This document shows positions 1,226-11,515 of a DNA stretch of 39,986 bases, piece by piece. Positions within the stretch are counted from its first letter, which is position 1, and every line of letters begins with the position of its first letter. The position numbers and the translations under genes were made by a program. The stretch is taken from NCBI GenBank assembly GCA_026004795.1, contig BPJV01000015.1, positions 1 to 39,986 of the forward strand. The letters are read 5' to 3'. The notes under the pieces are model-generated. The model was given only the letters and a program-made list of their open reading frames with translations, searched no databases and was not told where the DNA came from. Origin of the DNA: Pirellulaceae bacterium (lineage in GTDB: Bacteria > Planctomycetota > Planctomycetia > Pirellulales > Pirellulaceae).

Positions 1226-1537
1226 CTATGGCAACACGAAAAAGTTTCCCTCCCAGGCTTCCTTCAAGATCAGCTTGTCCAGTTCCGCTTCGGCCAGCAG
1301 TCGCTTCAGCCGCTTGTTCTCCTCCTCCAGTTCCTTCAGTCGCCGAGCCTCCTCGGCTTTCATCCCGCCGCAACCAACGCTGCGCGTCGGTGCCCGTTCC
1401 GCCAGCGATGGAACGTCGCCTCGCTGATCTCCAACGCTTGGCATACCTGGCCGATCGTCTGCCCAGACGACAACATCGCATCCGCCTCCCGAAGCTTCCT
1501 GATGATCTGCTCCGGAGCTGTGCCGCTTTCTGCTCAT
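1226..1537 (-). pseudogene. IS3-family orfA (helix-turn-helix), frameshifted
   Basis: From ATG at 1537 the protein starts MSRKRHSS, the usual start of this orfA group. One extra G then throws the frame; removing it restores EQIIRKLREADAMLSSGQTI and a helix-turn-helix ending EISEATFHRWRN. A further insertion of about 23 bp follows, after which the original frame resumes with GGMKAEEARRLKELEEEN and a leucine-rich coiled coil (KRLKRLLAEAELDKLILKEA). OrfA normally binds the terminal repeats and fuses to OrfB by programmed frameshifting. These lesions lie elsewhere, so the copy is inactive. The inserted 23-24 bp also occurs at 3952-3975. Confidence 0.75.
1373..1396. repeat. 24-bp hairpin sequence, copy 1 (inside IS3 orfA)
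   Basis: These 24 bp are identical to 3952-3975 inside group II intron A, while the bases on either side differ. The core folds as an 8-bp stem with one G-T pair and a 3-nt loop (ACCGACGC, GCA, GCGTTGGT on the minus strand). In orfA the sequence sits where the family consensus runs straight from the helix-turn-helix into GGMKAEEA, so it looks inserted. Confidence 0.6.
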
Positions 1538-1783: not shown

Positions 1784-1996
1784 GTGCGATATCGCGTTCT
1801 TATCGAGCAGGATGAAGACGGTGTTTATGTCGCCGAAGTCCCTGCGCTTCCTGGATGTATTTCACAAGGGAAAACCCGCAGCGAAGTGCTCGACAACATC
1901 AAAGAGGCAATCGCCGGTTATCTGGAGAGCCTCCAAGCGCATGGTGAACCGATTCCACCGTCGATTACCGAAGAGGTCGTGGAGGTTAAACCGTGA
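1784..1996 (+). CDS. hicB: HicB-family antitoxin
   Basis: The 70-aa protein has the HicB partial RNase H fold signature: YRVLIEQDEDGVYVAEVPALPGCISQGKT, then an EVLDNIKEAIAGYLESL helix. HicB antitoxins neutralise the HicA mRNA interferase by direct binding, and many repress their own operon. This one is short, with no separate DNA-binding domain visible. The start is GTG at 1784 with GGGAGG about 10 nt upstream. Its 3′ end overlaps hicA by four bases (GTGA), which implies translational coupling. The order antitoxin then toxin is the reverse of E. coli hicAB but common. The pair occupies the first visible cassette of the integron-like array; toxin-antitoxin pairs are frequent in such arrays and are thought to stabilise them. 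Confidence 0.9.
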   Translation: MRYRVLIEQDEDGVYVAEVPALPGCISQGKTRSEVLDNIKEAIAGYLESLQAHGEPIPPSITEEVVEVKP

Positions 1997-2217
1997 GTGC
2001 CTTGCCGGCCGTTTCAGGTCGCGAAGCGGTTAAGGCCCTTGAGAAGATCGGCTATGACCTGGACAGACAGCGAGGTAGCCACATGATTCTGCGGCAGTCG
2101 AACCCACCACACCGACGTTTGACCGTTCCCGATCACAAGGAAGTTGCCAAGGGAACATTGCGTGCGATCATTCGACAGGCTGGATTGACAGTTGAAGAGT
2201 TCAATAACCTTCTGTGA
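1993..2217 (+). CDS. hicA: HicA-family mRNA interferase toxin
   Basis: The 74-aa protein matches HicA: a small dsRBD-like fold with GREAVKALEKIGYDLDRQRGSHMILRQ, where the His of GSHMIL is the expected catalytic residue, followed by LTVPDHKEVAKGTLRAIIRQAGLTVEEF. HicA cleaves mRNA and is blocked by HicB. The GTG start overlaps the hicB stop codon. The stop codon lies about 13 nt before the 3′ end of group II intron A, that is, just before the R″ box of this cassette's attC. All key features are intact, so it is probably functional. Confidence 0.92.
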   Translation: MSALPAVSGREAVKALEKIGYDLDRQRGSHMILRQSNPPHRRLTVPDHKEVAKGTLRAIIRQAGLTVEEFNNLL

Positions 2218-2231
2218 GTCATTGTGGCGAA

Positions 2232-2300
2232 TCGGGTAAGGGCCATCCTTGCGGATGACCCTCCCCACACCACCTGACATGCGGGTCCGCATCAGGCGGT
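2232..2300 (-). ncRNA. Group II intron A domains V and VI
   Basis: On the minus strand, 2300-2269 folds as ACCGCCTGA / TCAGGTGGT (9 bp including a G-T pair) with an upper TGCGG/CGCA stem, a 2-nt bulge and an ACC loop. This is the shape of domain V; its lower stem holds CGC, the catalytic triad variant reported for group IIC. Domain VI follows as GGGTCATCC-GCAA-GGATGGCCC, then TTACCCGAT to the 3′ end. The maturase stop codon lies inside domain V. Confidence 0.75.
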
Positions 2301-3731
2301 TCCGCGAAGTGGAGCAAGCTGTGCCCATAAAGTCTTCATGCTGACCAGTCCTTGTTCGGCAAGCCATGCATTGGTCAGCCCGACGCCGCTGGCGATTGTC
2401 CTGCACATGTGCCAGTAGCTTTGTCGGCTGCGAGCGTGGCGGATGGCCTGACGTCGGGGGACGCCGAGTCGGATGAGCATCTCACGTCGACGTTTGGGTC
2501 GACGCCACTGCTTCCAGTAGCACATCCGGATTCGGCGACGCATCCACTGGTCGAGTCGATCGAACAGTTTCAACTGCGACGCCAGGCCGAAATATCCCAT
2601 CCAGCCGCGAACATACGATCGCAGTTCGCTCAGGCGACGATCCATCGAGATGCCCCGGCTGCGGCCGGTGATCTGGCGGATACGTTGCTTGAACTTGCGG
2701 AGGGATTTCGCCGCTACGTTGATCGTCGCCCGTGACTTCACGAACGCAAAGCCGAGAAACTCGAACTCCTTGCTCGGCACCACGCGGCTCTTCTCCTGGT
2801 TCACCACCAGTCGAAGTGTCTCGGTCAGGTAGCGGGACACCGACGCCATGATCCGCTCGGCAGCACGCTGCGATTTCGCAAAGATCGCGAAATCATCGGC
2901 ATACCTCACGAAGGGCAAACCGCGGCGCTCCAGCTCCTTGTCCAGATCGTCGAGCAGTATGTTGCTTAACAACGGACTGAGCGGACCGCCCTGGGGTGTG
3001 CCCACGTCGGTGGATTGCAGAACTCCTTCGACCATCACGCCCGCTCGAAGGTAGCGACCGATCAAGCGCAGCAGCCGTTTGTCGTCGACTCGACGAGCCA
3101 CCCGCGCCATCAGGACGTCGTGTTGGACTCGGTCGAAAAACTTCGACAAATCAATGTCCGCTGCGAATCGGTGTCCGCATCGGATGATGCGTTGCACCTG
3201 CCTGGCTGCTCCGTGAGCAGAGCGTTTGGGTCGAAAACCGAAGCTCGACTGGCTGAAGTGCGGGTCGAAGATCGGCGTCAGGACCTGGACGATGGCTTGT
3301 TGGATCAAGCGTTCGAGTACGTTTGGGATACCGAGCAAACGCTGACCGCCATCGGGTTTGTCGATGGTCTTGCGTCGTACCGGCCCAGGCTGGTACGTGC
3401 CATCGAGAAGCTGTTGCCTGATCGTGGGCCAGCGAGGTCGGAGCCATGCAGGGAATTCCGCAATGGTGATCCCGTCCGGGCCAGGGGCCCCGCGGTTCGC
3501 CTTCACGTTCTTCCAGGCTCGTTCCATGTTGGCTTGGTCGACAACGGCCTCCATCAAAGACATCGGAAATAAGCTCAAGGCTGGCTGCTCAGCCCGCGCC
3601 GCGGCGGTCGATCCCGGTCGGGACAATGACCCTGTGGTCTCCGGACCGTCGCCGCCTGAACGATTCAGGTCGACTTGCCCGGAGGTGGTCCCTCGCTGCG
3701 AGTTGGCTGTTGGCTCCTCCTTGTTCTTCAT
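2292..3731 (-). CDS. ltrA: Group II intron reverse transcriptase/maturase
   Basis: This 479-aa protein is encoded in intron A. About 60 residues of polar leader precede the reverse transcriptase domain: MERAWKNVKANRGAPGPDGITI, the RT2 region with LLGIPNVLERLIQQAI, SSFGFRPKRSAHGA, then VGTPQGGPLSPLLSNI and the catalytic YADD (FVRYADDFAIF). The C-terminal third holds the maturase/X region (GWMGYFGLASQLKLFDRLD) and a basic tail, MCYWKQWRRPKRRR, with RHARSRQSYWHM and LTNAWLAEQGL. I see no HNH endonuclease domain, as expected for introns of this type. The ATG at 3731 has AAGGA 7 nt upstream. The protein should splice intron A and could act in trans on the ORF-damaged copies B and C. Confidence 0.93.
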   Translation of the reverse strand: MKNKEEPTANSQRGTTSGQVDLNRSGGDGPETTGSLSRPGSTAAARAEQPALSLFPMSLMEAVVDQANMERAWKNVKANRGAPGPDGITIAEFPAWLRPRWPTIRQQLLDGTYQPGPVRRKTIDKPDGGQRLLGIPNVLERLIQQAIVQVLTPIFDPHFSQSSFGFRPKRSAHGAARQVQRIIRCGHRFAADIDLSKFFDRVQHDVLMARVARRVDDKRLLRLIGRYLRAGVMVEGVLQSTDVGTPQGGPLSPLLSNILLDDLDKELERRGLPFVRYADDFAIFAKSQRAAERIMASVSRYLTETLRLVVNQEKSRVVPSKEFEFLGFAFVKSRATINVAAKSLRKFKQRIRQITGRSRGISMDRRLSELRSYVRGWMGYFGLASQLKLFDRLDQWMRRRIRMCYWKQWRRPKRRREMLIRLGVPRRQAIRHARSRQSYWHMCRTIASGVGLTNAWLAEQGLVSMKTLWAQLAPLRGTA

Positions 3732-3951
3732 GGTTCGGTCCTTCCCGTCTCGATTGGTCTTCGAGATTCGGTACTACGACCTCTGCTGACTCCTGCCTCG
3801 CCCGCCACGAGTTGCCTCGTGGCGTTCCAACCTTTCGGGCAAGCCCTACTCGCTGGAGCGACCACGGCTGAACAGCCGTGCAGCGGCTCGCAAGCCGCCT
3901 GACAGGTCTCCCCGGATAAGCGCGTGATGTTTCGCTGCACAGGCTCGCACG

Positions 3952-3975
3952 ACCAACGCTGCGCGTCGGTGCCCG
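3952..3975. repeat. 24-bp hairpin sequence, copy 2 (inside group II intron A)
   Basis: Identical to 1373-1396 in the IS3 orfA remnant, with different flanks. It lies between the maturase start and the conserved 5′ part of intron A. Immediately beside it is a second small hairpin, GCCCGC-CTGA-GCGGGC (3971-3986), which overlaps the right-hand breakpoint of the 1,000-bp deletion seen in copy C. Confidence 0.6.
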
Positions 3976-4280
3976 CCTGAGCGGGCGTTTGAGAACGGCT
4001 TCGTGATGTTGTGCTCACTCGCCGACCCGAACCGGCCTTATATGGCGTTTCTGTTCGTAACCTCGCAGCTTTGACGAGAATGTGACCGGCGGCGAAATCA
4101 GGCCGGCACTTACGCACACATTCGCAGGCTTCCTCCCCACGGTCGGTCACCCTTCCGCAGTTGCCCTCGTCTAGTACTTTGTCAATCGGAGCCATCATTT
4201 GGTATACTGATCTCCTTGAGACTCTCGAACTCGTACAGGGGACTTGCACCCGATTACAATCACGCCCATGCCGGGCGTAC

Positions 4281-4367
4281 ACAAATCGGTGCACCGAAGC
4301 CGCCGGCGGTGCTGTAATTGATGGCCGAGCTTTTTGGCGGCGGCTCGGTGACCTTGGGACGTTCGTC
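4281..4367 (+). other. Integron attC site 1 (hicBA cassette), part right of intron A
   Basis: L″ at 4288-4305 reads GGT-g-CACCGA-a-GCCGCCG. It pairs with L′ at 4338-4353 (CGGCGGC-TCGGTG-ACC), leaving G4291 and A4298 as extrahelical bases. Such bases mark attC bottom-strand recognition by integron integrases. R′ is GTTCGTC at 4361-4367. The R″ half lies on the other side of intron A (about 2224-2230, GTGGCGA plus ACAA after the intron). Cleavage in R′ between G4361 and T4362 would define the start of the next cassette. Confidence 0.8.
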
Positions 4368-4392
4368 CGCAAAACCAAGCGCAGGAACCACT

Positions 4393-4986
4393 ATGCTACG
4401 CAAGCTGCTTGGCCTATTCGCATCTGGCAAGCCGTTCGTACCGCCAACCGAAAAGCAGGTCGAGTACGCAAAACTGTGTGGCGTTACAGTTCAGCCGGAC
4501 ATGGATCGCGAAGCCGTGTCGCGCGCAATTGACGCGGCTTTCGTTGCTGACCCGAAACTGAAGTTCAAGGTTTCCGCACGACGCAAGAGAAGCGAGAAGC
4601 AGGCGGCGGAACAATGGGAACAATTGCCAGCGCCACTCAAGCGGGAATTCAAAAAATGGCAATCCGCTGCCGATGAGCATGACCATTTTGTCATCGCGTA
4701 TTCGTCTGGTCGCAACGTGACTGTGGACATATTAGAATGTGACGGGGTTAGATTGGAACAGCAAACAATCATCATTGATTTCCTTGGACCGCGAATCGAA
4801 AACGTGGTCGTTGGATACGATGGGCGAAAGGAGATACGCGAAAACGAATTGTGTTGGGATCAAAAACTTTCGCTCCGGTCAGCCGATATCAAAGAATCGC
4901 GTAAAATTCAGATCTTCGAGCACCAGGTAAAGAAATACCAGTCAACGATTAAACGGACTATCGAACGTTTGCAGAAATCCAAATAG
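4393..4986 (+). CDS. Cassette-encoded protein of unknown function (197 aa)
   Basis: The frame is open from 4318, but 4318-4367 is attC sequence, so the start is taken as ATG 4393 (MLRKLLGLFASG) with AGGA about 7 nt upstream. The N-terminal part has PTEKQVEYAKLCGVTVQPDMDREAV, which resembles the small SAP/HeH-like helical segment found in some phage and bacterial proteins; that is only a resemblance. A basic stretch (SARRKRSEKQ) and a mixed region with many hydrophobic strands follow, ending in a Lys-rich helix. There is no signal peptide or membrane segment. Its cassette starts TTCGTCCGC and ends GCGGACGAA, exact complements, as expected for one circular cassette. AT-richer codon use than the core genes suggests transfer. 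Confidence 0.75.
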   Translation: MLRKLLGLFASGKPFVPPTEKQVEYAKLCGVTVQPDMDREAVSRAIDAAFVADPKLKFKVSARRKRSEKQAAEQWEQLPAPLKREFKKWQSAADEHDHFVIAYSSGRNVTVDILECDGVRLEQQTIIIDFLGPRIENVVVGYDGRKEIRENELCWDQKLSLRSADIKESRKIQIFEHQVKKYQSTIKRTIERLQKSK

Positions 4987-4994
4987 CGGACGAA

Positions 4995-5663
4995 ATCGGG
5001 TAAGGGCCATCCTTGCGGATGACCCGCCCCACACCACCTGACATGCGGGTCCGCATCAGGCGATTCCGCGAAGTGGAGCAAGCTGTGCCCATAAAGTCTT
5101 CATGCTGATCAGTCCTTGTTCGGCAAGCCAGGCATTGGTCAGCCCGACGCCGCTGGCGATTGTCCTGGACATGTGCCAGTAGCTTTGTCGGCTGCGAGCG
5201 TGGCGGATGGCCTGACGTCGGGGGACGCCGAGTCGGATGAGCATCTCACGTCGACGTTTGGGTCGACGCCACTGTTTCCAGTAGCACATCCGGATTCGGC
5301 GACGCATCCACTGGTCGAGTCGATCGAACAGTTTCAACTGCGACGCCAGGCCGAAATATCCCATCTCCGTCTCGATTGGCAGGCAAAATCTTGGCATCAG
5401 GACCGATGCTGACTCCGGCCTTATGGAACGTTTCTGTTCGTAACCTCGCCGCTTTGACGAGAATGTGGCCGGCGGCGAAATGAGGCCGGCACTTAATCCC
5501 ACACTCGCAGGCTTCCTCCCCACGGTCGGTCACCCTTCCGCAGTTGCCCTCGTCTAGTACTTTGTCAATCGGAGCCATCATTTGGTATACTGATCTCCTT
5601 GAGACTCTCAAACTCGTACAGGGGACTTGCACCCCATTACAATCACGCCCATGCCGGGCGTAC
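4995..5663 (-). mobile_element. Group II intron B, internally deleted
   Basis: Both intron ends match copy A: the 5′ end GTACGCCCGG near 5663 and 3′ CCCTTACCCGAT at 4995, with domains V and VI intact. The 3′ 370 nt are nearly identical to copy A. Alignment is then lost at 5366, within the maturase gene. A short segment (5367-5415) only partly resembles the region upstream of the maturase start in copy A (3742-3798), and full similarity returns at about 5418. About 1.38 kb is missing compared with A. The intron sits in the R″ box of the attC of the 197-aa-protein cassette. Confidence 0.8.
5056..5366 (-). pseudogene. Maturase fragment of intron B (C-terminal about 100 residues)
   Basis: Only the end of the maturase remains, from MGYFGLASQLKLFDRLD through WKQWRRPKRRREM to LAPLRGIA. 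The reverse transcriptase domain with YADD is missing. The frame stays open upstream to 5523 through unrelated or leader sequence, so a chimeric peptide is possible but unlikely to work. Confidence 0.85.
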
Positions 5664-5749
5664 ACAAAGCCGTGAACCGGAGCGGCGAAGTCGGACGCAT
5701 TTGACATGGACAATCTTTCGTCGCCGCCCGGTTACGGCCGACGTTAGCG
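5664..5749 (+). other. Integron attC site 2, part right of intron B
   Basis: L″ at 5669-5688 reads GCCGT-g-AACCGG-a-GCGGCGA and pairs with L′ at 5721-5738 (TCGCCGC-CCGGTT-ACGGC). G5674 and A5681 are left extrahelical at the same spacing as in attC1. R′ is GTTAGCG at 5743-5749. The R″ box, GCGGACGAA, lies left of intron B at 4986-4994 and is complementary to the start of its own cassette (TTCGTCCGC at 4362). After exon joining this copy carries one A more than expected. Confidence 0.82.
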
Positions 5750-5785
5750 TTTCGTGTGTCCTGTTTTTTATCCAAGGAGAATGAG

Positions 5786-6586
5786 ATGAAGAGTAAAGGT
5801 TTGATTGCCGCTTTGGTTTGTGGTGTCAGTAGTTTTGCCAGTTCTGCGTATGCTGGCTGGCTTTCCGTTATTGGAGTAGGGTGTACGATCGTGGCCATCG
5901 GGGCAGCAGTCCTCGGTGGACCTCCCGGTGCTGTTGCCGGGGGTGTCTTGGCCATCGTGGAAATCGGTTGCGTTGCAACCGATGTTGTTACGACCGTGAT
6001 TGACCGACCGATACTTTCATTTGCATCAGTCGAAGCACCCGACCCGATTCTGGTTGCCGATGCAGATGTTGGTGCCCAACTTCTTGGAGCGCAGTTTCAG
6101 CATATCACCGCGAGTGATCCGAGCTTGAACGCGTTGGCGACAGCAACAAATGAATACATCGACAGTCTCAATGCATACCTGTCCCATGCCGCCAATGGTT
6201 CGGACGCTCTAACTTTAGCAACTGATTTGGCATTGATGGGGAACTGCATCGATTCGATTGCGGATGAGATGGACACCCTTGGCTACGGGACGATGTCTTT
6301 CAATCAATCCCAGATTGACTCGGCGCAGGCATCAATATTGACAAATGGCCTTCCCCAATGGGAGATTGACTTCCTTACATCCGCCGGGCTCGATCAAGAT
6401 TACGTTGACATGTTTACGGAAATGCACCTAGTAGTGGACGTTACGGATCTTGGCGGTGTAACGGTGTCAGGCATGTTAAGGCAAGCGGCGGATACATGCA
6501 CCAATGCTGCAATAGACATGGCAATTTCTCACCCATTGATTCCAGCACCACGGCCAGCCCTGGAAGAGCCGATTGGAGTGGAGTGA
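5786..6586 (+). CDS. Cassette-encoded exported protein of unknown function (266 aa)
   Basis: The start is ATG 5786 with AAGGAG 6 nt upstream; the GTG at 5756 lacks a comparable site. A clear signal peptide runs to about residue 23 (MKSKGLIAALVCGVSSFASS, cleavage likely after AYA). It is followed by a long hydrophobic, glycine- and valine-rich stretch (residues 24-70: GVGCTIVAIGAAVLGGPPGA and VLAIVEIGCVATDVV). The remainder is acidic and helical, with few positive charges (TATNEYIDSLNAYLSHAANG, QIDSAQASILTNGLPQWEID). I recognise no family. The hydrophobic block could insert in a membrane. Its stop codon overlaps the start of the next gene (TGATG), so the two are probably coupled. The cassette begins TTAGCG at 5744. 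Confidence 0.78.
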   Translation: MKSKGLIAALVCGVSSFASSAYAGWLSVIGVGCTIVAIGAAVLGGPPGAVAGGVLAIVEIGCVATDVVTTVIDRPILSFASVEAPDPILVADADVGAQLLGAQFQHITASDPSLNALATATNEYIDSLNAYLSHAANGSDALTLATDLALMGNCIDSIADEMDTLGYGTMSFNQSQIDSAQASILTNGLPQWEIDFLTSAGLDQDYVDMFTEMHLVVDVTDLGGVTVSGMLRQAADTCTNAAIDMAISHPLIPAPRPALEEPIGVE

Positions 6587-6786
6587 TGAGACTGTTCATT
6601 CTCGCAAGTAGTTTGCTCTCCGCTGTTGCGGCGCTAGCAATGATTGCCATTTGCATTACATTGCCAAAACTAGAGTGGATAGCAGCAAGCATCGCTTTAG
6701 CAGCATTTGCAACGCTTCAGTACTTCAATTTCAGGAAGTCCAAGTCGTCACAATCGCAACACCAAACTGCGATTGATCAACGCTAA
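6586..6786 (+). CDS. Small two-helix membrane protein (66 aa), second gene of the cassette
   Basis: The ATG at 6586 overlaps the stop of the preceding gene. Two hydrophobic helices are evident, about residues 3-26 (LFILASSLLSAVAALAMIAI) and 30-47 (EWIAASIALAAFATLQYF). A short basic and glutamine-rich tail follows (RKSKSSQSQHQTAIDQR). The stop codon TAA is part of the attC R″ box CGCTAA. Function is unknown. Coupling to an exported partner suggests an envelope-linked pair; an immunity or anchoring role is one possibility, without direct evidence. Confidence 0.65.
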   Translation: MRLFILASSLLSAVAALAMIAICITLPKLEWIAASIALAAFATLQYFNFRKSKSSQSQHQTAIDQR

Positions 6787-7835
6787 TCGGGTAAGGGCCA
6801 TCCTTGCGGATGACCCTCCCCACACCACCTGACATGCGGGTCCGCATCAGGCGGTTCCGCGAAGTGGAGCAAGCTGTGCCCATAAAGTCTTCATGCGGAT
6901 CAGTCCTTGTTCGGCAAGCCATGCATTGGTCAGCCCGACGCCGCTGGCGATTGTCCTTGACATGTGCCAGTAGCTTTGTCGGCTGCGAGCGTGGCGGATT
7001 GCCTGACGTCGGGGGACGCCGAGTCGGATGAGCGTGTCACGTCGACGGTTGGGGCGGCGCCACTGTTTCCAGTAGCACATCCGGATGCGGCGACGCATCC
7101 ACTGGTCGAGTCGATCGAACTGCTTCAGCTGCGACGCCAGGCCGAAATATCCCATCCAGCCGCGAATATACGATCGCAGTTCGCTCAGGCGACGATCCAT
7201 CGAGATGCCCCGGCTGCGGCCGGTGATCTGGCGGATACGTTGCTTGAACTTGCGGAGGGATTTCGCCGCTACGTTGATCGTCGCCCGTGACTTCACGAAC
7301 GCAAAGCCGAGAAACTCGAACTCCTTGCTCGGCACCACGCGGCTCTTCTCCTGGTTCACCACCAGTCGAAGTGTTTCGGTCAGGTAGCGGGACACCGACG
7401 CCATGATCCGCTCGGCAGCACGCTGCGATTTCGCAAAGATCGCGAAATCATCGGCATACCTCACGAAGGGCAAACCGCGGCGCTCCAGCTCCTTGTCCAG
7501 ATCGTCAAGCAATATGTTGCTTAACAACGGACTGAGCGGGCGTTTGAGAACGGCTTCGTGATGTTGTGCTCACTCGCCGACCCGAACCGGCCTTATATGG
7601 CGTTTCTGTTCGTAACCTCGCAGCTTTGACGAGAATGTGACCGGCGGCGAAATCAGGCCGGCACTTACGCACACATTCGCAGGCTTCCTCCCCACGGTCG
7701 GTCACCCTTCCGCAGTTGCCCTCGTCTAGTACTTTGTCAATCGGAGCCATCATTTGGTATACTGATCTCCTTGAGACTCTCAAACTCGTACAGGGGACTT
7801 GCACCCCATGACAATCACGCCCATGCCGGGCGTAC
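6786..7835 (-). mobile_element. Group II intron C, exact 1,000-bp deletion derivative
   Basis: The ends match copies A and B. Aligned to copy A there are no other length differences: the left part is 746 nt up to the breakpoint and the right part 298 nt after it in both. The breakpoint lies in CTGAGCGG (7532-7539), which occurs in copy A at 2977-2984 and 3977-3984. Deletion between those 8-bp repeats removes exactly 1,000 bp, taking the maturase N-terminal half and its leader. Several point differences from A in the 3′ third show it is not a very recent copy. It is inserted in the R″ box of the cassette holding the two genes at 5786-6786. Confidence 0.85.
6847..7539 (-). pseudogene. Maturase fragment of intron C, lacking its N-terminal half
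   Basis: The remaining frame covers the second half of the reverse transcriptase domain, including LSNILLDDLDKELERRGLPF and the YADD site, and the entire C-terminal maturase region to LAPLRGTA. The N-terminal part, with RT1 to RT4, is removed by the 1,000-bp deletion. Substitutions relative to copy A include FDRLD preceded by Q instead of L and RRPNRRRDT instead of RRPKRRREM. It cannot be an active reverse transcriptase. Confidence 0.88.
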
Positions 7836-7920
7836 ACAATGCAATGCACCGGAGCCGCGAAGACGGGCGTTTTCAAATGGACAATCACTCGTCGCGGCCC
7901 GGTGATTGCGGACGTTGAAC
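7836..7920 (+). other. Integron attC site 3, part right of intron C
   Basis: L″ at 7841-7860 reads GCAAT-g-CACCGG-a-GCCGCGA and pairs with L′ at 7892-7909 (TCGCGGC-CCGGTG-ATTGC), with G7846 and A7853 extrahelical. R′ is GTTGAAC at 7914-7920, a full match to the GTTRRRY consensus. R″ lies left of intron C: CGCTA at 6781-6785 plus ACAA at 7836-7839 gives CGCTAACAA. This is the exact complement of the start of its own cassette (GTTAGCG at 5743). Confidence 0.85.
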
Positions 7921-7963
7921 TAAGCCGCTTCGCGGAAGTCATTTTCTTCGACCACTCATTCGG

Positions 7964-8046
7964 GTCGTCCGCGCTGTAGGGAATGTCCGCGCTGGAACAA
8001 TCGTCCGCGCGATGAGGGTCGTCCGCGCGATGAGAGTCGTCCGCGC
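7964..8046 (+). repeat. Cluster of five short repeats built on (T)GTCCGCGC
   Basis: TCGTCCGCGC occurs near 7965, 8001, 8020 and 8038, with a variant ATGTCCGCGC near 7984. Spacing is about 17 to 19 nt, and the units near 8001 and 8020 share the longer form CGTCCGCGCGATGAG. The cluster lies just left of the recombinase gene. Such repeats could be binding sites for the recombinase or the transposase at the element's terminus; this is inferred from position only. Confidence 0.6.
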
Positions 8047-8214
8047 TGTAATGTCTCTCTGAGGATGATATCTGGCATTCTTGCCCCGCCCGTCAAGTTT
8101 CTACTTGCGCGATGCCTTGTTCTGAAGCATGCTTCCGGTAGTCAGGCCGAATGGCCAATTGCCGATCCAGCAACTCTACCTAGCGAGGCAGCCTTGACGC
8201 CCTTTAAGAAACGA

Positions 8215-9120
8215 ATGAATGGTTATATCAAGCGGATGGCCGAGGACATGCAACTGCGGAACTTCTCGCCCAGTACCATCGACTCCTACACCTACCACGT
8301 CGACAAGTTCTGCCAGCACTTCGGCAAGACCGCAGACCGGCTGGGCCCCGAAGAGATCCGGTTGTATCAGTTGCACCTGGTCAATGAGAAGAAAGTTTCC
8401 TGGAGCAGCTTCAACCAAGCCGTTTGTGGCCTAAGGTTTCTGTACACCGTGACGCTCGGCAAGGACTGGGCCATCAAACACATTCCATTCGGCAAACGAC
8501 CCAAAAAACTGCCGACTGTGCTCTCCAACGAAGAAGCTTGCCGGTTATTCGAATGCCTTCACAACCCCAAACACCATGCCGTCCTGCTGACTTGCTATGC
8601 AGCCGGCCTGAGACTCAGCGAGGCGACGCACCTGAGGGTGGCCGACATCGACGGCGACCGTTCGCAACTGACGATCCGCCACGGCAAGGGGCGCAAGGCC
8701 CGAGTTGTCCCAGCATCCCCGCGACTGCTCGAGGCACTGCGAACGTATTGGAAGATCGACCGGCCGCGGGACTTTCTGTTTCCCGGCAAGACGCCCGACA
8801 GCCCGCTCTCTTCGGCGACGGTCCAGAAAGCATGCAAGCTGGCGGTGGCCAAGGCGGCAATCACCAAGCCGGCCGTCACCCCACACACGTTGCGGCACAG
8901 TTGGGCCACCGGAATGCTCGAAGCGGGCGTGGACTTGCTGACCATCAGCAAACTGATGGGACATTCCAGCTTCGTCACCACGATGGTCTACCTGCACGTC
9001 CGGCGTCAGCATCTGGACCGGTCGCCCAGCCCGATCGACTGGTTGCCGGTGAGGCAATGTCCGCGATGGGCCGAGCCACGACAGGACGATCCGCCGACCA
9101 AGAGCAACGGCCGCGGGTGA
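8215..9120 (+). CDS. Tyrosine recombinase (XerD-like integrase) of an IS91-like element
   Basis: The 301-aa protein has a SAM-like N-terminal domain (MAEDMQLRNFSPSTIDSYTY) and a complete catalytic domain. Arg133 is in AAGLRLSEATHLR, the beta-hairpin Lys in HGKGRKAR, His224 and Arg227 in HTLRHSW, His250 in LMGHSS, and the nucleophile Tyr259 in TMVYLH. ATG 8215 matches the family start; the frame is open to 8065 but the extra 50 residues look unrelated. It lacks the extra helix typical of integron integrases (IntI), which lies between the second and third catalytic boxes, so it is not the integrase of this cassette array. Its end overlaps the IS91-type transposase start by 64 nt, so the two are likely co-expressed. 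Confidence 0.9.
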   Translation: MNGYIKRMAEDMQLRNFSPSTIDSYTYHVDKFCQHFGKTADRLGPEEIRLYQLHLVNEKKVSWSSFNQAVCGLRFLYTVTLGKDWAIKHIPFGKRPKKLPTVLSNEEACRLFECLHNPKHHAVLLTCYAAGLRLSEATHLRVADIDGDRSQLTIRHGKGRKARVVPASPRLLEALRTYWKIDRPRDFLFPGKTPDSPLSSATVQKACKLAVAKAAITKPAVTPHTLRHSWATGMLEAGVDLLTISKLMGHSSFVTTMVYLHVRRQHLDRSPSPIDWLPVRQCPRWAEPRQDDPPTKSNGRG

Positions 9121-10391
9121 TCGATTTATTGCGGCAGTTCACTCCGCGGTTCATGATGCGGAATCGTACGCATCCCCAAGTCAAGAGCGTCCTGTCGAAG
9201 ATTCTGCTCTGCCGCACGGCGGTCCTGAAAGGACACGTCTATGAGTGCAACCGTTGTCGGTCGCGGATCAACGTGTACAACTCGTGCACCGACCGGCACT
9301 GTCCGCAGTGTGGGGGAGCCAGGCGGGCGGACTGGATGGACAAGAGCGCCGAAGTCCTGCTGCCCGGCGTGCCGTACTTTCAAGTCGTCTTCACGCTGCC
9401 CGACAAACTTTCGTCGTTGATTCTCGGAAATCGGAGCGAGCTTTACAGCTTGTTGTTTCAAAGTGCTTGGCGGGCTCTCGATAGTGAACTTCGCCGCACG
9501 GGCAAGTTCCACCCGGCGGCACTGATGATTCTCCACACATGAAACCAACAGTTGGAACACCATCCGCATATTCACGCGGTGGTTCCCGGAGCCGGACCGT
9601 CGCTCGACGAGGACCGGTGGGTCGTGGCGAAACATCCAAGGCACCGCCGTCGCAAGAAGCCGTACCTGACCGATCATGTCGAACTTGGCCGGGCCTTTCG
9701 CAAGTGCTTCGTTCGCGGTCTGAGACGACTGCTTCGCAAGGGAACGCTCAAGCTCGGCGGAAGCGTGGAGTTTCTGAACGGTCCAGCTCAACGCGACGCC
9801 TGGCTCAACGAGCTCGAAGCGACTGACTGGAACGTGTTCATCGAAGGCCCTCCCAGCGGCCACAGCGACCCGGCGAATGTCATCAAGTACTTGGCCCGTT
9901 ACCTGACCGGCGGTCCGATCGCCGACAGCCGCATCATTCGTGCCAACCAGGACGAAGTCTGGTTCTGGGCCCGGCCCAAACGAGCTTCGGGCAAAAAGCG
10001 ACGCGGCATGCACAAGCCGCGGCCATTCCGCCTCGCCGCGGATCAGTTTATGACGCGATGGACAACTCACATCTTACCCAAAGGCTTTACCAGGTCCCGT
10101 TCCTATGGCGGCTACCATTCCCGCAAGCGAAAAAGTTATCTCAATCGATGTCGTGAACTGCAGTGCCCGAAGCCAGCCGAAGAACCCGTCGACGAGATGA
10201 CAAATCCAGTCATTGCCAGTTCACAACCCGAACTCCGTTGTCCGCGTTGTGAGGGCGAGCTTGCCTGCATTCAAAGCAGCAAGCGCCCCAGTTGGCGGCA
10301 AATCTTCGACCGCGACATCTACCAGGTCGCGGGCTTATACAGTCCGATGTTCCACGTGCTCTCTCGCGCCCCGCCTCGGAGACCGCGTTGA
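9057..10391 (+). pseudogene. IS91-family transposase (Y2 HUH), interrupted by one in-frame TGA
   Basis: From ATG 9057 the frame runs to TGA 9540-9542 and continues in the same frame to 10391, 444 codons in all. The N-terminal zinc-finger-like region has CNRCRSRINVYNSCTDRHCPQC. After the stop come the HUH motif (HHPHIHAVVPG) and the paired tyrosines (VIKYLARYLTG), which are the catalytic elements of IS91 rolling-circle transposases. A C-terminal ELRCPRCEGEL zinc knuckle follows. The stop falls where relatives have Trp (LHT-W-x-Q-x-L-E-H-H), so TGG to TGA is the simplest explanation. A 161-residue zinc-finger fragment and a separate catalytic part could still be made, but normal activity is unlikely. 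Confidence 0.85.
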
Positions 10392-10627
10392 CCATGAAAC
10401 TTATCGCCACCGGGCCGCCTTCCATTCAACTCGTCTCCGGGCGAGCCCGCCGCCGATGCGCTTGGGCCGCCCATACTGCCTTTCTGTTCGGACAACATCA
10501 TCCATCCGCTGAAGCTGTGGCACTTTCCTTGGGCGCGAAATTGTTTGACCGGCAGTGACGATTTGCTACGATGTTAGGCAAAGGAGGCCGCCGTTGCAGT
10601 GCAATCCGCATACCGCGACAGCGGCAA

Positions 10628-10687
10628 GTTCAACGCCAAATCTATCCATCGACATCCTGTCACTGGATAGATTCCAATACGTTAGCT
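10628..10687 (+). other. Probable attC site 4 of the IS91-occupied cassette
   Basis: R″ is GTTCAAC (10628-10634), a perfect RYYYAAC match and the exact complement of the R′/cassette start GTTGAAC at 7914. R′ is GTTAGCT (10681-10687). Between them a hairpin pairs AATCTATCCA (10639-10648) with TGGATAGATT (10664-10673), with GACA/TGTC above it. Unlike attC1 to attC3 the L boxes pair perfectly without extrahelical bases, which makes this call less certain. If right, the cassette runs from 7915 to 10681 and has been filled by the IS91-like element. Confidence 0.5.
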
Positions 10688-10714
10688 GGCAATCCATATC
10701 GAAAAGGTCGTCAC

Positions 10715-11251
10715 ATGCGTCAAAACATTTCTGTCACGCTCGCTGTGGCGTTGGCCTTCTTGGTGAGTGCGCAAACGGCAGCTGAAGACGGCCGTGTCGA
10801 ATACCAAGCTGAGATCGATGCCGACATTGACGCCGTATGGAAGGCGTTCACAACAGGTGCGGGCCTCCAATCATGGATGGCGCCGCTTGCCGAGATTGAG
10901 CTTGTTGTGGGCGGCAAGATGAAAGCCAATTACAACGCAGAAGGGGAAATCGGCGACTCCACGACGATCGAAAACACCATCCTGTCGTTTGATCCGAAAC
11001 GCATGCTGTCTCTCAAGGCAACGAAATTCCCGGAAGGCTTTCCTTTTGAAGAAACCGCGAAGGCCACATGGTCCGTTTTCTACTTTTCAGAACTTCCGTC
11101 CTCTCGCACCAAAGTCACCGTGGTTGGCCTTGGATACTCCGACACCGAACCGTCGCGACGAATGCGAGAGTTCTTTGCAATTGCCAATAAACAATTGCTC
11201 GACAGACTCAATGAGTCGCTGAAGAAGCAAAGGGCGAACGCACCGCAGTAG
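10715..11251 (+). CDS. Exported SRPBCC/AHSA1-like protein (178 aa), cassette-encoded
   Basis: The start is ATG 10715 with AAAAGG 7 nt upstream; the longer open frame to 10571 would run through the attC4 site. Residues 1-23 are a signal peptide (MRQNISVTLAVALAFLVSAQ, cleavage after about TAA). The mature part follows the START-like/AHSA1 pattern: VEYQAEIDADIDAVWKAFTT, GLQSWMAPLAEIELVVGGKM, then ENTILSFDPKRMLSLKA and TKVTVVGLGYSD. Such domains bind hydrophobic ligands or help chaperones; the ligand here cannot be told. The cassette start TTAGCTGG and its end CCAGATAA are complementary except at one base, supporting a single cassette that is now capped by intron relic D. Confidence 0.82.
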   Translation: MRQNISVTLAVALAFLVSAQTAAEDGRVEYQAEIDADIDAVWKAFTTGAGLQSWMAPLAEIELVVGGKMKANYNAEGEIGDSTTIENTILSFDPKRMLSLKATKFPEGFPFEETAKATWSVFYFSELPSSRTKVTVVGLGYSDTEPSRRMREFFAIANKQLLDRLNESLKKQRANAPQ

Positions 11252-11270
11252 ATGGCGCGGGCCCCAGATA

Positions 11271-11515
11271 ATCGGGTAAGAGCCATCCCTGCGGTTGACT
11301 CACCCCACATCACCGGACGTGCGGGGGCGCATCAGGTGGTTCCGCGAAGCGGAGCAAGCTGCGCCCATAGAAGTCTTGTCGACCGGCCATTGGGCGGGCT
11401 CGTGCGAATGCAGTTGCCCTCGTCCAGTCCCTTTTCAATCGGAGCTATCACTTGACATACTGATCTCGTTGAAACTCGCAACTGCTCATGCCGTCCCTGC
11501 GGGACTGTTGGGAAA
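11271..11515 (-). mobile_element. Group II intron D, eroded relic
   Basis: The 3′ end ATCGGGTAAG (plus strand) and degraded domains V and VI are recognisable at 11271-11345. The last 13 maturase residues (LLWAQLAPLRGTT) and about 90 nt of the conserved 5′ region (11410-11480, CAGTTGCCCTCGTC and CAATCGGAGC) also remain. The rest of the maturase is gone, and the 5′ end differs from the other copies. It follows AGATA, which with ACAA at about 11515 would give AGATAACAA, the R″ box of the SRPBCC cassette. An L″/L′ pair for this fifth attC is not convincing. Confidence 0.65.

Follow-up and report, generated by a model that had tools for sequence, protein, structure and literature searches.

The window analyzed here is the whole of contig C15 (39,986 bases) from a Pirellulaceae genome, G000 (5.59 Mb on 17 contigs), and its integron cassette array, which spans approximately 1.7-11.6 kb, carries copies of a group II intron that run against the direction of the cassettes and interrupt the R'' box of attC sites. 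These copies are group IIC-attC introns, and every feature tested agrees with this assignment. The best overall explanation, to which we give a probability of about 0.75, is that the introns inserted into attC sites and that homologous recombination between the intron repeats then exchanged units made of an attC and the next gene. The class, target, and ends of the introns, the occupancy of the sites, the deletion derivatives, the mosaic introns, and the exchanged neighbors can all be seen at the level of sequence comparison. The attC sites were scored with a model (R1) made from an alignment of 12 sequences, 7 of them from occupied sites; the sites of introns A, B, and C are among these 12. 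The intron copies and the attC parts beside them are as follows (nt, nucleotides).

2231-4280, minus strand: intron A, full length, 2,050 nt (Rfam matches D1D4-1 at 3738-3826, D1D4-3 at 3921-4156, and domain V-VI at 2231-2301).
2292-3731, minus strand: open frame of the reverse transcriptase (RT)/maturase of intron A, 479 amino acids (Pfam RVT_1, 2.4e-39; GIIM, 1.8e-20).
4009-4012, minus strand: putative exon-binding site 1 (EBS1), ACAA on the intron strand in the loop GCACAACA (placed by motif position; the name EBS1 is our interpretation).
4179-4208, plus strand: promoter-like site TTGTCA-18-TATACT, directed outward to the next cassette (hexamer motif count).
4281-4367, plus strand: right part of attC A with stem and R' (R1 match 4274-4367, 65.6 bits; site in the training set).
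4995-5663, minus strand: intron B, a 669-nt deletion derivative that lacks the EBS1 loop (BLAST to A).
5664-5748, plus strand: right part of attC B (R1 match 5659-5748, 78.6 bits; site in the training set).
6786-7835, minus strand: intron C, a 1,050-nt deletion derivative that has kept the EBS1 loop (BLAST to A).
7836-7920, plus strand: right part of attC C (R1 match 7831-7920, 77.0 bits; site in the training set).
11271-11477, minus strand: relic D, two pieces with the 5' end gone (similarity to intron A).

Introns B and C share 93-98% identity with A on the same strand, and their RT frame is largely deleted. On the plus strand the intron runs from ATCGGG to GGGCGTAC, which corresponds to a 5' end of GUACGCCC and a 3' end of CCCGAU on the intron strand. 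The Rfam domain V-VI match terminates exactly at 2231, and the junction GGGCGTAC/ATCGGG (a slash marks the join here and below) occurs twice with zero gap in the head-to-tail introns of contig BPJP01000020.1. Both ends can be fixed because these tandem introns abut without a spacer. From 257 related loci 80 were kept, and in 70 of these the contig extends 450 nt or more upstream of the RT match. The motif GT[AG]CGCCC is present in that upstream region in 57 of these 70 loci, with TTGT before it in 26; the 57 include the tandem BPJP copy as well as three loci whose contigs retain hardly any exon.

When the flanks are joined, intron A leaves TGTGGCGA/ACAAATCG, intron B leaves CGGACGAA/ACAAAGCC with one surplus A, and intron C leaves CAACGCTA/ACAATGCA. 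The insertion keeps the AC of R'' and the complete attC stem, and the remaining R'' is replaced. An earlier note on this DNA had claimed that A, B, and C run opposite to the cassettes, each splitting the R'' of a real attC, and that their removal restores the sites with one surplus A at copy B; the intron ends, the joined flanks, and the R1 matches bear this out. Joining restores the R'' core in 12 of 17 copies and leaves a surplus A in two (B and C17-1), while three (C1-773, BPJP01000028-1, and one G007 copy), and one further G034 copy, come out one A short. The A-short junctions may be imprecise insertions, and the surplus A of intron B would fit a junction whose left gene was exchanged. We set aside the R'' register mismatch as proof of exchange, since the A-short cases are explicable by imprecise insertion. 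Relic D had also been placed in R''. Its intron-derived pieces (11270-11377, 87%; 11410-11477, 85%) lack approximately 55 nt of the intron 5' end, and the left junction CCAGATA/ATCGGG agrees with the intron end, as the claim predicts. The other half of the claim finds no counterpart: the placement in R'' is taken from the left junction only, because the right side yields no attC recognized by R1 at E values up to 10.

Among solved chains the intron RT is nearest to the GsI-IIC RT (446 bits), followed by a second group II RT (357) and LtrA (134). Domain V-VI with a CGC triad matches RF00029 at 40.4 bits against a cut-off of 40 in introns A and C, and the CGC triad is given as the IIC form of domain V in the available text of PMC7923331. 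The loop in D1D4-3 has the Rfam consensus aaaa (GCaaaacA); here it reads ACAA, the complement of TTGT, and is probably EBS1 facing intron-binding site 1 (IBS1) TTGT. The ACAA loop was found in A, C, C17-1, C1-773, one tandem copy, and two G034 copies, and it is absent from B. A motif search did not find it in four G007 copies, three of which join at AA/CAA, and some other introns are bordered by CCA or TCA flanks instead. The RT, the CGC triad, the ends, and the flanks thus support what the earlier note proposed, namely group IIC-attC introns that are oriented to the bottom strand and sit in R''. Neither another class nor a set of unrelated targets emerged: the introns belong to class C, and attC matches adjoin 26 of the 30 intact 5' ends. 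As for splicing and retromobility, the open RT frame and the 1-2% divergence among most full copies would be compatible with recent activity. The attC stem (helix 2) has 18 pairs, with 90.7% of cells paired and 13 pairs altered on both sides; for the attC structure as a whole, the covariation score of the alignment was matched by 0 of 500 shuffles, and slid controls gave much lower values. R1 detects attC A, B, and C, all three being in its own training set.

The R1 search (E up to 1, 150 candidates scored per genome, so match counts are lower bounds) gave at least 18 attC matches in G000, at least 11 in G001, at least 43 in G007, and at least 58 in G034, of which 8, 5, 7, and 6 are occupied by an intron. 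Intact intron 5' ends adjoin an R1 match in 8/9, 5/7, 7/7, and 6/7 cases, respectively, which makes up the 26 of 30 (two inner tandem ends of G001 excluded). Eight of the 26 are training-set sites or identical copies, and the independent count is 18/22. The 5' ends lacking a match are C1-776b, BPJP01000020.1 at 9254 and 30086, and G034 at 2861045; a separate search gave the 30086 end a weak R1 match (E 0.15). Intron-free attC matches in G000 comprise 4 beside the integrase on C12, 2 on C17, and 4 on C16, C1, and C2 (on C16 and C2, "empty" means that no intron match adjoins). Saturation is local and not general, with 8 of at least 18 attC matches occupied in G000, and the window is a dense case. 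The earlier statement that four of five consecutive cassettes carry an intron applies locally if the unit at 7918-10681 is counted as the fifth, and does not apply genome-wide; the statement that nearly every attC is hit likewise holds for this stretch and fails for the rest of the genome.

Five comparisons between arrays bear on the exchange of neighbors. (i) Window 4995-6896 is identical over 1,902 nt to BPJP01000020.1, a block that covers intron B, attC B, gene 3, and 111 nt of intron C. On its left side the gene differs right from the intron edge, and on its right side 11 differences in 260 nt are followed by a different intron body and a different attC. (ii) BPJP01000028.1 and C17 have in common the intron, the greater part of the attC after it, the cassette that follows, and a 173-nt miniature intron copy (mini), with a different gene on the left; three of the four intron substitutions fall within the first 221 of 2,031 nt, in a count that disregards one base by which the joined insertion sites differ. 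(iii) C12 and C17, both in G000, carry the same two cassettes and the first 172 nt of the intron with 0 differences over 1,388 nt, and beyond this identical part there are 13 differences in 1,289 nt. (iv) The tandem copy T1 is C-type at 13 sites and then T2-type at 9, an order with a probability of 2e-6 in C(22,9). (v) In G034, assembled as one contig of 9.57 Mb, a block of attC, gene, and 21 nt of intron is present twice and identical over 448 nt. To the right of the two blocks there are 24 intron differences and the attCs are unlike; to the left, one block borders an intron that is followed farther out by an IS91-like unit, and the other borders an empty R'' GGGTAA/CCAAGCGG and different sequence. 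The copy with the empty R'' may represent a site that had yet to receive its intron. In total, 6 of 7 shared-block boundaries lie in or at an intron and the remaining one lies inside the IS91 unit (2 from (i), 1 from (ii), 2 from (iii), and 2 from (v); a small hand count).

Several observations weigh against exchange by recombination between introns. Contact with introns is what brought the blocks to notice, so they are not a random sample; intron B is identical over all 669 nt and has no visible breakpoint; the C12/C17 identity stops leftward within the IS91 unit, with 12 differences between 4453 and 5022; and in G034 only one of the two block copies has the left-hand intron. In addition, 10.4 kb of G000 non-array DNA finds its nearest match in the BPJP bin at only 67-71%. 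Because of this value (misbinning or transfer), BPJP01000020.1 and BPJP01000028.1 are treated as variant arrays and not as proven sister strains; the sister-strain idea was dropped, though the array contig of the bin has repeated segments in common with G000 at 92-99%, and the composition of the bin mildly favors misbinning. We also rejected one apparent case of gene shuffling in G034, where one "gene" end stands at four different empty attCs. The joined "gene" is a tyrosine-recombinase/IS91-like element by translation (named by eye), so the four-attC pattern is explained by transposition next to attC.

In the proposed mechanism, the intron ribonucleoprotein would recognize the folded attC bottom strand and the IBS1 TTGT via its EBS1 ACAA, and would insert into R'' antisense to the cassettes by reverse splicing, a reaction presumed from the known family. 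Full-length copies retain the open RT frame, and B, C, D, and the two 172-173-nt minis are deletion derivatives. The introns form near-identical direct repeats that separate each gene from its attC, and recombination between introns of the same direction could delete, duplicate, or exchange the attC plus the next gene, giving rise to mosaic introns. The unit of the integrase is a gene plus its attC, bounded by R', and this keeps a gene with its own attC. The unit exchanged between introns would be offset from that cassette, and genes would get a new attC. Cases (i), (ii), and (v) are unlike integrase movement because the gene there does not stay with its own attC. Homologous recombination as the agent, intron-bounded circles, and effects on the integrase or on expression are what we infer from these patterns. 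Going further, the attC introns may form a second shuffling system in which RecA-type recombination, perhaps via intron-bounded circles, re-pairs genes and attCs independently of the integrase; we hold the chances of this to be evenly balanced.

By parting the outer R'' from the rest of the attC, an intron could also make the site unusable for the integrase and freeze the cassette, the lock suggested in the earlier note. The insertion does split R'', a stop-free integrase gene above the family cut-off is present in the genome, the four attCs nearest the integrase (C12) are intron-free, and arrays vary around intron-bounded blocks while the blocks themselves are intact. The AC of R'' and the entire stem are retained, however, and we regard freezing as somewhat less likely than not. 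It can be true together with recombination, although the array changes at introns look like recombination rather than simple freezing. It is improbable that the introns were passengers, with the integrase moving gene, intron, and attC as one and neither repeated insertion nor recombination between introns taking place. The identical pair of intron-bearing cassettes on C12 and C17 would suit such movement, but A, B, and C stand behind different genes and with different attCs, and in (i), (ii), and (v) the gene on one side of an intron has parted from the attC on the other, which movement of whole units would not bring about.

Another possible reason why the copies, degenerate ones too, have been kept is transcription of the following cassette from an outward promoter close to the intron 5' end. 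The site at 4179-4208 is one found against 0.1 expected in 320 nt, both hexamers are intact in 14 of 23 intron ends, and an outward promoter of S.ma.I2 was tested, as the available part of PMC8876359 states. The same stretch belongs to the ribozyme, so conservation is no proof; moreover, the -35 hexamer is lost in both minis, the -10 hexamer is altered in C1-776b and C1-463, and both are lost in one G034 end. We consider retention for promoter function rather unlikely. Errors of assembly or binning, by which near-identical repeats of 0.7-2 kb misled the assemblies and made the exchanged neighbors chimeric contigs, would agree with the start of BPJP01000020.1 inside an intron and with the distance of the remaining bin DNA from G000. 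We consider them very improbable: the same pattern occurs in the single 9.57 Mb contig of G034 and within G000, and three breaks coincide with changes of the single-nucleotide polymorphism pattern inside introns. Insertion followed by recombination between the intron repeats is the explanation that we prefer.

The closest known systems are the group IIC-attC introns S.ma.I2 and relatives, which, as far as the available text of PMC7923331 goes, share with the present copies a class C RT and antisense insertion into R'' at TTGT/T by the attC hairpin, and which are proposed there to help form cassettes. The outward promoter of S.ma.I2 (PMC8876359, in part) has its likeness in the promoter-like site, which is directed outward too. 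What differs here is that several adjacent attCs are filled, that derivatives down to 172-173 nt lie at the same target, and that there are signs of exchange; the available portions of PMC7923331, PMC8876359, PMC3053210, and PMC4424553 do not describe such density, small derivatives, or comparative evidence for exchange. No published account of these arrays was found in a literature search that covered few subscription papers, which is no proof of absence. Terminator-targeting group IIC introns, according to excerpts of PMC4424553, have in common the RT class and a target of hairpin plus short IBS1; here the loop is ACAA and not the aaaa of the Rfam D1D4-3 consensus, and the hairpins are attCs. 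The Leon-Roy model, as related in parts of PMC3053210 and PMC7923331, includes homologous recombination between attC introns that joins a gene to another attC, a step that our arrays would share. It starts with a terminator intron and ends with loss by splicing and reverse transcription, whereas exchanged neighbors and mosaic introns are what is found here. Introns without an open reading frame (ORF) are rare in bacteria and nearly always accompanied by relatives whose protein may act in trans (PMC4424553, in part), and RT-less copies alongside intact relatives are likewise present in this genome. Intron B and the minis are possibly dead remnants, because they, unlike those ORF-less introns, have lost the EBS1 loop as well.

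Further derivatives and tandems were observed. The two minis of 172-173 nt, C17-2 (C17:9985-10157) and C1-776b (C1:776k), lie at different attCs, share a deletion junction, and keep both intron ends. They are not claimed as a proven mobile miniature, as short microhomology could yield the junction twice, and their seven "shared sites" lie beside the deletion junction. ORF-reduced derivatives stand at several attCs, four of them in G034 (803-804 nt), where only RT fragments of this intron RT family were found; a pair in G007 (1,423 nt, 98.4% identity) has unlike flanks. At one attC in BPJP01000020.1 1-6078, three group II introns follow each other head to tail with nothing between them; the first is truncated by the contig start and is a mosaic of two other copies. 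A search of 199 family genomes for the tandem junction, with one mismatch allowed, gave no match.

The array genes of the window are, in order, hicBA, gene 2, gene 3 with a small ORF, a tyrosine-recombinase/IS91 unit, and an AHSA1-like gene, located as follows.

1784-2217, plus strand: first cassette, with hicB-like 1784-1996 and hicA-like 1993-2217 (Pfam HicB_lk_antitox, 1.7e-12; HicA_toxin, 5.8e-21).
4393-4986, plus strand: gene 2, within ORF 4318-4986; its top Pfam match is under the cut-off, so no family is assigned with confidence.
5786-6786, plus strand: gene 3 and the small ORF behind it (6586-6786), from ORF calling; Pfam gave no family.
7918-10681, plus strand: unit of a tyrosine recombinase and an IS91-type Y2 transposase (Pfam Phage_integrase, Zn_Tnp_IS91, Y2_Tnp).
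10571-11251, plus strand: AHSA1/Polyketide_cyc2-like gene (Pfam).

The left half of R'' of the first cassette stops at 2230. The unit at 7918-10681 is placed like a cassette, carries no intron, and has a transposase frame interrupted by a stop. Tyrosine-recombinase/IS91 units are also present on C12, C17 (two copies), C1:786k, C10, and BPJP01000020.1 26142-28905; five of six distinct left flanks are an R1 attC with the unit beginning directly after the CGTTG of R', and C10 is the exception. A related IS91-like unit in G034 adjoins the R'' of an attC from the opposite side. These elements seem to choose attC hairpins. The integron integrase gene scores 379 bits (TIGR02249 cut-off 265), has no stop, and lies beside empty attCs on C12, a contig that may or may not join C15 with the window array. 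A 24-26-nt sequence at window 1373-1396 and approximately 3950-3976 has exact copies at C12:57127, C12:104858, and C10:105227; it sits in insertion sequence-like and intron DNA and is perhaps a small dispersed repeat.

To our knowledge, the origin of gene-attC coupling is an open question of integron biology. Exchange by intron recombination would lend the Leon-Roy model support from nature at one step of cassette formation. The re-pairing of genes and attCs with breaks at introns, seen in natural arrays that include one pair in a one-contig genome, makes this step testable in a laboratory strain. The window is also a case of a single family of retroelements that has come to fill a local array, with ORF-less and tiny derivatives remaining at the same target.

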